NCBI GenBank assembly: GCA_030619985.1 | Contig: JAUXAI010000055.1 | Span: 1 to 7,732 of the forward strand | Length of the DNA: 7,732 nt | Direction: 5' to 3' | Origin: a bacterium | Lineage (GTDB): Bacteria > UBP18 > UBA7526 | Shown: piece by piece, positions 3,483-6,687 of the stretch | Layout of the letters: every line of letters starts with the position of its first letter | Numbering within the stretch: the first letter of the stretch is position 1 | Translations under genes and position numbers: made by a program | Notes under the pieces: model-generated | The model's input: only the letters and a program-made list of their open reading frames with translations | Database searches by the model: none | Told to the model about the DNA's origin: nothing

Positions 3483-4451
3483 ATGGAATTAGCCTGCGTT
3501 TGTATAATTGCCTATATCATGGATTTGACCTTAGGAGACCCAAAGTGGCTGGGCCATCCTGTGGTCTGGATGGGAAAAGCCATTGCTTTTTTAGAAAGAA
3601 AGGTTTACGGTTTACGGTTTACCGTTTACGGCAAAGGATTAAATCATAAAAAGATTGCGGGGGTTATTCTGACAATTGTTGTTGCGGGGGGAAGTTTTTT
3701 AATTGCCTGGACAGTTATTAGAATAGCCTATAAGTTACATCCTGTCTTGGGTTTAATTGTGACCATCTGGGGCGCTTTTACTACTCTTTCTATAAGAGGA
3801 TTAGGGCAGGGAGGAGAATGGGTCTATCAAGCATTAGCGAAGAAGAACCTTAAGTTAGCCCGCAAAAGACTTTTTGAAATTGTAGGACGGGATACTAAAA
3901 ATTTAAGAAGAAAGGGGATAATTAGGGGAACGGTGGAGAGTGTAGCAGAAAATACCATAGATGGTGTAGTGGCCCCCCTATTCTATCTCTTCTTAGGGGG
4001 TGTTCCCCTGGCCTTTACCTACAAGGCAATAAATACTCTGGACTCTATGATTGGCTATCAGAATAAGAAATATAAGGATTTTGGCTGGGCAGGAGCAAAA
4101 TTGGATGATATTGCCAACTATATCCCTGCTCGCTTGGGAGGAGTATTAATCTCTCTGGGAGCGTTTTTCTTTAAGAAAGATGGGAAGAACGCCTTCCGAA
4201 TTATGCTTAGGGACGGAAGAAAGTATCATAGTCCAAATGCCGGTCTTCCCCAGGGGGCGATGGCCGGAGTACTGGGAATAAGATTGGGCGGGATAAACTA
4301 TTACCGGGGCAAGAAGATAAACAAACCTTATTTAGGCAATGCAAAGAAAAAACTTTCTTCAATTCATATCAAAGAGTCCATTAATCTAATGTATCTGACA
4401 TCTGTTCTTACTCTAATCTTAGGAGTTTTTATTAGATGGCTCCTCCTATAG
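3483..4451 (+). CDS. cbiB: Adenosylcobinamide-phosphate synthase CbiB
   Basis: Integral inner-membrane enzyme that amidates adenosylcobyric acid with aminopropanol phosphate to give adenosylcobinamide phosphate (the homologue is called CobD in the aerobic pathway). The 322 residues match the family along their length: GDPKWLGHPVVWMGK (18-32), IVGRDT (133-138), VESVAENTIDGVVAPLFY (151-168), YKAINTLDSMIGY (180-192), AKLDDIANYIPARL (205-218) and SPNAG (250-254). Several hydrophobic segments occur, including about 57-78, 87-103, 161-179, 218-230 and 305-322. The ATG follows TAAGGT with a 6-nt spacer, 8 nt after tonB. Residues 40-50 are encoded by a four-copy heptamer repeat in the variable loop before the second hydrophobic segment. 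The 3' end overlaps pduX by 16 nt. Confidence 0.95.
   Translation: MELACVCIIAYIMDLTLGDPKWLGHPVVWMGKAIAFLERKVYGLRFTVYGKGLNHKKIAGVILTIVVAGGSFLIAWTVIRIAYKLHPVLGLIVTIWGAFTTLSIRGLGQGGEWVYQALAKKNLKLARKRLFEIVGRDTKNLRRKGIIRGTVESVAENTIDGVVAPLFYLFLGGVPLAFTYKAINTLDSMIGYQNKKYKDFGWAGAKLDDIANYIPARLGGVLISLGAFFFKKDGKNAFRIMLRDGRKYHSPNAGLPQGAMAGVLGIRLGGINYYRGKKINKPYLGNAKKKLSSIHIKESINLMYLTSVLTLILGVFIRWLLL
3602..3629 (+). repeat. Heptamer repeat (GGTTTAC)x4 inside cbiB
   Basis: Three exact GGTTTAC units (3602-3622) are followed by CGTTTAC (3623-3629). A 7-nt unit passes through all three frames, so three units encode one heptapeptide cycle, visible in the protein as VYGLRFTVYG. In the coding orientation the repeat has no stop in any frame; in the reverse orientation it contains TAA. 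It lies in a poorly conserved loop, which may explain why it is tolerated. Confidence 0.85.
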
Positions 4452-5407
4452 GTATAGCAAAAGCGCCTGGCTCCTGCGGGGAATTGGTTCAGGGAACGCT
4501 CAATGGAGAGAGTTTTCATATCTCTTGCCCCATAAATCTATATTCCCAGGTAAAAATTGTCTTGAATGACAGGGGTAAGATAATCGGTCCTCCTGATAGA
4601 TGGAAGACGAAAGAAGCGATTAAACGAACCCTAAAATTCTTTAGCAACGAAAATCTTGGAGCGAGGTTTGAGATTGACTCTAAAATACCCTTGGGAAAGG
4701 GAATGGCCTCCTCTACTGCAGACATTGGAGCTGCCTCTCTTGCAACCGCCAAAGCGCTAACCGCAAAATCGCTAGTAAACCCGCCAAGGCGCCTGTCTGC
4801 CGACGAGGCAGGCAAAATTTGGCGTCTTTGTTTTAAACCTTGGCGACTTGGCGTTAAACACAAAGAGATATCTCCCCAGGAGATTACCAAGATTGCCCTA
4901 TCCATCGAGCCCACGGATGGGACATTGTTTAATGATATAGTCATCTTCGACCATAGAAACGGCGCCCTTTTTAAATTCTTAGGGAAAGCACCAGATATAG
5001 AGATACTCGTTATCGATTTAGGAGGAGAGGTAGATACGTTACAATTTAACAGAAGGGATTTGACCAGAATTAACCGGGGGAGAGAAAAAGAGGTAAAAGA
5101 AGCCCTAAAGTTAGTGGAAAAAGGAATAAGAGAAAAGAATCCAAGATTGATTGCTCAAGGAGCAACGATTAGCGCTTTCAGTAACCAGAGAATTCTTTAT
5201 AAACCTGCTCTTGATAGAGTATGGAAGATCTCTCAAGAAGCAGGGGCTTTAGGAATAAACATCGCCCATAGCGGAACAGTGGTGGGCATTCTGGCCGAGC
5301 CAAATAGAGTTAATTTTACAGAACTGAAAAATTCTTTGCAGGGCAGGGGAATTGGCAAAATTTTCTATAAAACAAAGATAGTAAATGATGGCTTACAGAT
5401 AATCTGA
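4436..5407 (+). CDS. pduX: L-threonine kinase, PduX-like GHMP kinase
   Basis: Cytoplasmic kinase expected to make L-threonine O-3-phosphate, the substrate of the CobD decarboxylase encoded next. The N-terminus carries KAPGSCGELVQGT (9-21), characteristic of the PduX group. The GHMP ATP-binding loop is IPLGKGMASSTADIGA (84-99), followed by SIEPTDG (156-162) and the C-terminal motif IAHSGTVVGIL (276-286). The start is the ATG at 4436 inside the end of cbiB, with AGGAG at 4421-4425. The protein has 323 residues, about 35 more than the conserved motifs seem to need. The surplus, residues 109-143, lies between the ATP loop and SIEPTDG and is encoded by a palindromic repeat, keeping the frame. The gene context excludes homoserine or mevalonate kinase as the better call. 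Activity despite the insertion is inferred from the intact motifs. Confidence 0.9.
   Translation: MAPPIGIAKAPGSCGELVQGTLNGESFHISCPINLYSQVKIVLNDRGKIIGPPDRWKTKEAIKRTLKFFSNENLGARFEIDSKIPLGKGMASSTADIGAASLATAKALTAKSLVNPPRRLSADEAGKIWRLCFKPWRLGVKHKEISPQEITKIALSIEPTDGTLFNDIVIFDHRNGALFKFLGKAPDIEILVIDLGGEVDTLQFNRRDLTRINRGREKEVKEALKLVEKGIREKNPRLIAQGATISAFSNQRILYKPALDRVWKISQEAGALGINIAHSGTVVGILAEPNRVNFTELKNSLQGRGIGKIFYKTKIVNDGLQII
4747..4864 (+). repeat. Nested palindromic element inserted in frame in pduX
   Basis: Three nested inverted pairs are visible. CGCCAA (4747-4752) pairs with TTGGCG (4848-4853), CGCCAAGG (4782-4789) pairs exactly with CCTTGGCG (4838-4845), and GCCTGTCT (4791-4798) pairs with AGGCAGGC (4806-4813) with one G-U, around a 7-nt loop. 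A further TTGGCG lies at 4819-4824. The corresponding residues (about 109-143, 105 nt) are basic and Trp/Arg-rich and look foreign to the kinase. The exact borders are uncertain, because the first CGCCAA may belong to the original gene. It resembles in concept the palindromic elements found inside Rickettsia genes, but I do not claim homology. Confidence 0.75.
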
Positions 5408-5426
5408 AGATGCAAGAGACAGATAA

Positions 5427-5561
5427 ACCACAAATCACAATATACAAATCACAAACAAATTCCAAATTCCAATTACCAAATGTTCAAAACAAACCGTTTT
5501 GGACATTGTGATTTTGGTCATTGTATATTGTTTGTAATTTGGTGCTTGTTATTTGGAATTT
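5427..5561. repeat. Composite A/C-rich to G/T-rich inverted-repeat element
   Basis: The left half (5427-5490) has a single G, and the right half (5496-5561) has only three C. At the centre a 12-bp hairpin (5479-5490 with 5496-5507, one G-U) encloses the loop AAACC. Two outer word pairs are exact reverse complements: CAATATACAA (5438-5447) with TTGTATATTG (5521-5530), and AAATTCCAAAT (5457-5467) with ATTTGGAATTT (5551-5561). These two pairs are crossed, not nested, so the whole is not one simple cruciform. No coding, promoter or terminator signal is convincing here. I recall similar strings in many uncultured-bacterium genomes. Confidence 0.75.
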
Positions 5562-5577
5562 ATTCATTCTGGTTACC

Positions 5578-5605
5578 GATCACTGTTCACAGTTCACTGA
5601 TCACA
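5578..5605 (+). repeat. Degenerate heptamer repeat before cobD
   Basis: GATCACT, GTTCACA, GTTCACT and GATCACA follow each other without gaps: four 7-nt units of the form GWTCACW. The block ends exactly where the cobD Shine-Dalgarno begins. It shares the 7-nt period and copy number of the repeat inside cbiB but has a different sequence. Confidence 0.75.
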
Positions 5606-5610
5606 GAGGT
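5605..5610 (+). promoter_or_regulatory. Ribosome binding site that fixes the cobD start
   Basis: AGAGGT lies 6 nt before the ATG at 5617. This, together with the N-terminal homology that begins at MHIHGGN, shows that the in-frame upstream ATG at 5521, which lies inside the repeat element, is not the start. Confidence 0.75.
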
Positions 5611-5616
5611 ATCAAG

Positions 5617-6687
5617 ATGCATATCCATGGTGGGAATGTAAAAGAGATTGCTAGAAGGTATGGATTAAGGGGAGAGAAGATAATAGATTTCAGTGCCAAT
5701 ATCAATCCTTTGGGTTCTTCTCCAAGAGTAATCAGAACCCTAAAGAAAAATTTAGATAGAATTGCTCGTTATCCCGATCCAGAGGCAATGAATTTGAGAG
5801 AAGAACTCTCTAAATATCTAAAGGTCAATCCAGAGAATATAATTGCCGGGAATGGGGCAGTAGAACTTATCTATCTAATCTGCCGCACTCTCAGGCCCAA
5901 GAAAGCCTTAATTGTTATCCCTACCTTTAGTGAGTATGAATTTGCCCTAAAGAGCGTGGGATGTAAGATATCTTTTTTTACCTTAAGACCAGCTAATAAT
6001 TTTAGGCTGAATGTAAAAAGATTAATAGAGCGTTTAAAGAAAATAGACTTATTATTTTTATGTAATCCCAATAATCCTACGGGACAACTTATGAGTAAAG
6101 CCGATATGTTAAAGATAGTCGATGCTGCCCGAAAGAGAGGAGTATTTGTTGTTATAGACGAGGTATTCATGGATTTTGTTGAGGAGGATTGGAAAGAGAC
6201 CTTGATCTATGAGGCAACAAGAAGAGACAATCTTTTTATCATAAGGTCCTTGACCAAGTTCTTTGCTCTTCCTGGGATACGCATCGGCTATGGAATAGGG
6301 AATAAAGAACTTTTGAAAAGAACGAAGATTCATAAGGAATACTGGAGCGTCAACGCCCTAGCCCAAGTAGCAGGAATAGCAGCTTTGAGAGACAGGGAAT
6401 ACATCAAAAAAACAAAGGGACTTATCTCGGAAGAAAGGGAGTTTCTCTACCATAGATTATCTAAAATTAATGGTCTAAAGCCCTATCCCTCAGTCACCAA
6501 CTTCGTCCTTTGTCGACTAACTAATAAAATGGATTCCAAAAGACTTCAGGAAAAATTAATCCAAAAAAATATCCTCATTCGAGACTGCGCATCCTTTCAC
6601 CCCTTAAATAATAGATATATTCGCATCGCAGTAAGAACCCGCAAGGAAAACCTACATTTAATTAATTCTCTTTCAACCATTATTTAA
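5617..6687 (+). CDS. cobD: L-threonine-O-3-phosphate decarboxylase CobD
   Basis: PLP-dependent cytoplasmic enzyme that converts L-threonine phosphate to (R)-1-amino-2-propanol phosphate, the linker used by CbiB. The 356 residues fit the usual length of about 360. The N-terminus has HGGN (4-7) and DFSANINPLG (24-33), which distinguish CobD from its paralogue histidinol-phosphate aminotransferase. Further aminotransferase fold I motifs are RYPDPEA (51-57), GNGAVELIY (78-86), CNPNNPTG (149-156), DEVFMDF (181-187) and SLTKFFALPGIRIGYG (211-226), with Lys214 as the predicted PLP Schiff-base residue. The C-terminal domain has IRDCASF (321-327) and YIRIAVRT (334-341). The start is fixed by AGAGGT. 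The 209-nt gap before it holds only repeats, so cobD probably shares the upstream transcript. A terminator follows directly. Confidence 0.94.
   Translation: MHIHGGNVKEIARRYGLRGEKIIDFSANINPLGSSPRVIRTLKKNLDRIARYPDPEAMNLREELSKYLKVNPENIIAGNGAVELIYLICRTLRPKKALIVIPTFSEYEFALKSVGCKISFFTLRPANNFRLNVKRLIERLKKIDLLFLCNPNNPTGQLMSKADMLKIVDAARKRGVFVVIDEVFMDFVEEDWKETLIYEATRRDNLFIIRSLTKFFALPGIRIGYGIGNKELLKRTKIHKEYWSVNALAQVAGIAALRDREYIKKTKGLISEEREFLYHRLSKINGLKPYPSVTNFVLCRLTNKMDSKRLQEKLIQKNILIRDCASFHPLNNRYIRIAVRTRKENLHLINSLSTII

Follow-up and report, generated by a model that had tools for sequence, protein, structure and literature searches.

Nested palindromic repeats in frame within a PduX-like kinase gene and their dispersed copies in an uncultured bacterial lineage

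The window analysed in this study, a stretch of 7,732 nucleotides, is one contig of genome G000 (1.25 Mb, 91 contigs, 84% complete) and harbors a cobalamin transport and assembly cluster that comprises a BtuB/TonB-dependent receptor, ExbB, ExbD, TonB, CbiB, a PduX-like kinase and CobD, with ExbB, ExbD and TonB named by position and appearance. CbiB and CobD both scored above the NCBIfam cut-offs, and the kinase encoded between them scored above the cut-off for Pfam GHMP_kinases_N/C. A sequence search of the PDB with PduX returned no match at E<=0.001, and the fold was therefore identified by structure; the kinase model matched GHMP kinases, such as mevalonate kinase (6mdf, E 5.5e-17). The place between CbiB and CobD, together with the family resemblance, makes L-threonine kinase (PduX) the natural call, and the nearest named PduX relatives were from Candidatus Aerophobetes (44-50%). 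Every catalytic motif of the window kinase was found intact, as the initial annotation had stated. The relevant features are as follows.

3483..4451, + strand: CbiB (adenosylcobinamide-phosphate synthase), upstream neighbour of the kinase; TIGR00380, 263 bits, cut-off 166
3603..3631, + strand: GTTTACG heptamer repeats in cbiB, in frame, GLRFTVY, 7 extra residues (21 nt)
4436..5407, + strand: 323-aa GHMP kinase, PduX-like L-threonine kinase, encoded with cbiB and cobD on either side
4744..4858, + strand: element A, a ~95-nt palindromic repeat, longer in the window; from covariance model, BLAST and hairpin fold
4763..4861, + strand: the 33 codons (residues about 110-142) that G001, G003 and G004 lack; from codon and protein alignments and a spacing census
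4782..4789, + strand: inner inverted repeat of A, 5' arm CGCCAAGG, perfect complement of the 3' arm
4792..4812, + strand: the 21-nt element B, CCTGTCTGCCGACGAGGCAGG, lying within A; 12 genome copies, missing at this point from other A copies
4838..4845, + strand: inner inverted repeat of A, 3' arm CCTTGGCG, perfect complement of the 5' arm
5617..6687, + strand: CobD (threonine-phosphate decarboxylase), downstream neighbour of the kinase; TIGR01140, 347 bits, cut-off 291

Compared with the same-family orthologues of G001, G003 and G004, the window kinase contained 33 additional amino acids, corresponding to 99 nt, between the P-loop helix and SIEPTDG, and the placement of these codons is ambiguous by a few residues. 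The surplus had been put at 105 nt and about 35 residues; the alignments reduced this size, and its being a multiple of three was upheld. The earlier remark that this segment departs from the family spacing was borne out by a census of 80 orthologue loci taken from an 84,980-species collection; 57 of these loci were readable with one motif pattern. The GKGMASS-to-PTD spacing was 63 in the window kinase, compared with 30 or 31 in 55 of these 57 orthologues (30 in 48, 31 in 7), and the two exceptions were G002 (45) and one unrelated Bacillota protein (58). In G002, the nearest orthologue, a shorter and remodelled insert was found at the same position, with ends as in the window (AACCGCCAAAGCGC...ACGCAAAG) and different inner palindromes. 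A Bacillota PduX (L135) had an unrelated 28-residue insert in the same loop, which suggests that this site is length-tolerant in general. In addition, a separate in-frame palindromic insert, QVKSPWATSSHYAKGFTG, was observed in the pduX of G003 (L023) between PPDRW and WKTKEA, and its DNA had no second copy in the six genomes.

These comparisons bear on the explanation that the segment is a conserved extra domain of a PduX subfamily whose DNA is palindromic by chance. The extra residues of G002 at the same position would fit such a domain; however, they match those of the window in neither sequence nor length, intergenic copies of the DNA exist, and the segment is lacking in almost every distant orthologue as well as in G001, G003 and G004. 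The initial annotation had named its presence in close and distant orthologues as a refutation, and this presence was not observed. The conserved domain was refuted by these empty sites and by the dispersed copies described below, and it retains practically no probability.

The DNA of the insert was resolved into two elements. Element A has a length of ~95 nt, and its copy in the window is longer (~115-117 nt) because element B lies inside it. The nested inverted pairs reported earlier proved to be real: the inner arms are perfectly complementary, the wider pairs 4782-4793/4842-4853 and 4747-4760/4840-4853 are 92% and 79% complementary, respectively, and the GCCTGTCT hairpin of the kinase insert is element B. 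The insert stretch folded better than dinucleotide shuffles (z -3.3), and so did an intergenic copy of A, L026 (z -5.0), which folded into a single long hairpin. BLAST aligned 44 nt of the window (4817-4860) to an intergenic copy elsewhere in G000 (L002/L026) at 95% identity (E 3.5e-14 to 4.6e-14), and the A family model matched window 4745-4858 with an E value of 1.3e-16, the window copy being among the training sequences of that model. With the intergenic copy as the query, BLAST detected 7 copies of A in G000 and a further 20 across five relatives, a census that rests on searches and on the stretches around their matches, and A was absent from the other 274 of the 280 genomes searched. RNAalifold analysis of 10 copies supported 15 pairs, 2 of them compensatory, and covariation support was weak; the covariance model R1 contained only 7 base pairs, so that matches to A rest mainly on sequence.

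Most copies of A were intergenic, and many of them lay directly 5' of a ribosome-binding site (...GGTTGCAAAGGAGG). An internal, in-frame position of A within a gene was shown only for pduX; a second gene carried it as a C-terminal tail. The tail was observed in a ScpB-like protein, named by eye, of two genera (L206, G000:C53:2221; L236, G005:C5). Moreover, the 5' ~18 nt of A in the window aligned with host codons (ACCGCCAAAGCG versus ACTGCTAATGCC), so that the left boundary is uncertain and either host sequence was replaced or the match arose by chance. Given this ~18-nt host counterpart, the window copy amounts to an element of about 117 nt with a net gain of 99 nt, and the simple clean addition that had been proposed does not hold.

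When up to 3 mismatches were allowed, G000 contained 12 copies of element B and its relatives a further 14, and the reversed control gave 0. The window B is an exact copy of the repeat found 12 times in G000, and the other copies of A were devoid of B at the corresponding place. Among 290 genomes, only isolated matches with 1-2 mismatches were found outside the taxonomic family, and viral contigs contained no exact match; A and B were essentially confined to this lineage among the 280-290 genomes. The initial annotation had interpreted the segment as one mobile or self-copying palindromic element, a reading that a single occurrence of the DNA core in the host would have refuted. The host-genome search for this core instead revealed dispersal, with 7 copies of A, mostly intergenic, and 12 of B, often in genes; the single element gave way to two, one nested in the other, and self-copying is no more than a possibility. 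With a length of 7 codons, B is stop-free in all six frames, a property shared by 11% of random 21-mers of the window, and this openness is therefore not necessarily adaptive. As for a possible preference of B for nesting in other repeats, 86% of B sites and 60% of random sites had a 12-mer that occurred at least 3 times, the sampled loci being themselves rich in repeats.

B was also found in frame inside other genes, namely valS (G000, G002), dnaN (G001, G002), waaA (G000), a priA-like gene (G002), a metH-like gene (G004), a gene for a multi-pass membrane protein (G000), a pilus-assembly-like gene (G005) and the N-terminus of comEC, as well as in two lysine/proline/alanine-rich tails, one of which contained two copies (G000). 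Across these genes, B was read in several frames and in both orientations. The identities of valS, waaA, dnaN and metH were backed by PDB matches, relative to which B falls in an insertion or a linker; the remaining genes were named by eye from sequence. In valS, an exact empty site was available: G001 and G004 read ATATAAACGCAGATG (ATATAAA|CGCAGATG), whereas G000 reads ATATAAA-CCTGTCTGCCGACGAGGCAGG-CGCAGATG, a net difference of 21 nt, and the site of G002 is the same as that of G000 except for one base. This exact gain of 21 nt, without target-site duplication, is the cleanest proof of B insertion. For dnaN, an exact empty site was found for a 51-nt composite in which B lies within an outer palindrome; the composite was present in G001 and G002 and absent from G003-G005. 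Furthermore, a second B copy in the comEC of G000 was missing from G002, again with a net difference of 21 nt. A gain of exactly 21 nt with no duplication is unlike what the usual transposition of insertion sequences would leave.

REP and REPIN sequences, which are associated with RAYT, are palindromes of 20-40 bp in multiple copies (PMC3733652, PMC3116915), and B is REP-like in its size and palindromy. However, no match to Y1_Tnp (PF01797, RAYT) was obtained in the six genomes, which are 53-93% complete, although the control search was positive in five reference genomes, and many B copies are gene-internal rather than extragenic. The mobilization of REP/REPIN-type sequences by a RAYT transposase is considered very unlikely.

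Other short in-frame repeats were encountered in this lineage. The GTTTACG repeats of cbiB were absent in G003, and in G004 their site held another insert of larger size. GATCACC heptamers and the palindrome 'CCGCCCCAGGGGGCGAGACCTCGCC' occurred in the variable linkers of WaaA and ValS. The linker of WaaA (L197-L203) was different in each species, consisting of palindromes or of GATCACC/GAACTCC heptamer arrays, always in frame. A CAGGATCCTGAGGATCCT repeat lengthened the C-terminus of ValS in G000 and G001 (L246, L247) and occurred at ~8 places in the sampled DNA. In the spacer between pduX and cobD (window 5420-5620), an AT-rich stretch of ~150 nt with short direct and inverted repeats was observed, whose arms were 82% complementary at 5454-5481/5537-5564 and perfectly so at 5437-5447/5521-5531; it is likely another repeat family. 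The sampled proteins suggest that loop growth by short repeats may be widespread.

The in-frame heptamer tandem arrays in cbiB, valS and waaA, along with 15-nt local direct repeats, lend some support to the explanation that the kinase segment arose within pduX itself, by slippage or local tandem duplication and without any connection to dispersed elements. Nevertheless, the 44-nt core is 95% identical to a remote intergenic copy, the family model, which includes the window copy in its training set, matched at the E value given above, and B exactly reproduces a repeat with 12 copies in the genome. A purely local origin is consequently regarded as highly improbable.

The codon tree of the kinase placed G000 and G002 together with a support of 0.988. 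Between these two insert-bearing species, dS was about 0.5 and dN/dS was 0.149 over the 237 codons outside the inserts, which shows that the gene is under purifying selection. The AlphaFold2 model of the kinase had a mean pLDDT of 92.8, with values above 90 in the catalytic core and of 67, 69 and 47 in the blocks of the insert (residues 111-140). On the question of a surface loop, which the initial annotation had raised for modelling, the insert is modelled with low confidence and may best be regarded as a flexible loop borne by an intact GHMP kinase. The conserved motifs, the dN/dS of 0.15 and the model are consistent with a working enzyme. These sequences are most simply read as the outcome of a single shared insertion in the ancestor of G000 and G002, with divergent remodelling afterwards; as the inner palindromes of G002 differ, this single event is likely but unproved, and repeated insertion at one tolerant site of the kinase is possible.

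The retention of the insert, though remodelled, in two species at this dS might suggest that it is functional and was selected for a new role of the kinase, such as binding or regulation. However, the low model confidence, the lack of sequence conservation with the insert of G002 and the occurrence of B in several frames of unrelated proteins make such a role very unlikely.

Taken together, the segment very probably consists of two lineage-specific dispersed palindromic repeats that were inserted into a surface loop of the kinase in the common ancestor with G002. Element A, which is open in the frame of the kinase, would have entered the gene first, and B would then have inserted into the loop of A. 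The protein tolerates the elements because their site, presumably a length-tolerant loop joining the P-loop helix to the helix after it, accepts additional residues, because they add a number of nucleotides divisible by three and because they bring in no stop codon. Being 7 codons long and stop-free in six frames, B is suited to coding DNA: whatever its frame or orientation, an inserted copy mostly does no more than add residues. The elements may move by trans-acting machinery or by repair-coupled copying, their effect on the enzyme was presumably near-neutral, and out-of-frame insertions would have been lost by selection. A broader proposal, advanced here tentatively and with considerable doubt, is that B is a 'frame-neutral' 21-bp mobile repeat, able by virtue of its length and its freedom from stops in six frames to enter coding DNA nearly anywhere, and that, with A, other palindromes and heptamer arrays, it keeps entering the loops of essential proteins throughout the lineage through a form of copying for which target duplication is not required.

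The closest known case is that of the Rickettsia palindromic elements (RPE), short dispersed palindromic repeats with an open frame that occur between genes and in frame inside conserved genes (PMC2229807, PMC10969869); at least one RPE-bearing enzyme, a guanylate kinase, has been shown to be active (PMC2229807; also PMC10969869). The behaviour matches, as in-frame insertion in conserved genes with empty-site orthologues was found at pduX, dnaN and valS. Membership does not: the present host is not Rickettsia and belongs to an unrelated lineage, and B measures 21 nt in contrast to 105-150 nt for RPE. Element A has ~95 nt (115 nt with B) and forms one long hairpin in L026, but over 10 copies only the 15 pairs mentioned above, 2 of them compensatory, were supported. 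Moreover, B differs from RPE in being open in six frames, several of which are used, and the elements described here are nested in each other. The two systems are set apart by host lineage and size rather than by sequence comparison. Bacterial MITEs with coding potential (ERIC/RU-1, YPAL/RU-2, and Correia of 107 bp) are small non-autonomous stem-loop repeats for which in-frame gene fusion is possible (PMC2229807). The present elements are likewise small stem-loop repeats able to fuse in frame, but the exact empty sites of B are without target-site duplication. The small dispersed repeats of cyanobacteria (SDR5 type) are hairpins of ~21-27 nt that are seemingly mobile and nest in other repeats; they belong to another lineage and resemble B in size and nesting. 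A literature search of incomplete coverage found no account of such elements in the lineage studied here.

In conclusion, Rickettsia is the best-known host of palindromic repeats that lie in frame in conserved genes. The uncultured lineage studied here, which is unrelated, behaves in the same way, with elements that are far smaller and nested, with empty sites that are exact and with core genes such as dnaN and valS among the recipients. It provides another system in which to study the movement of very small repeats in the absence of known transposases and the acquisition of new loops by proteins.
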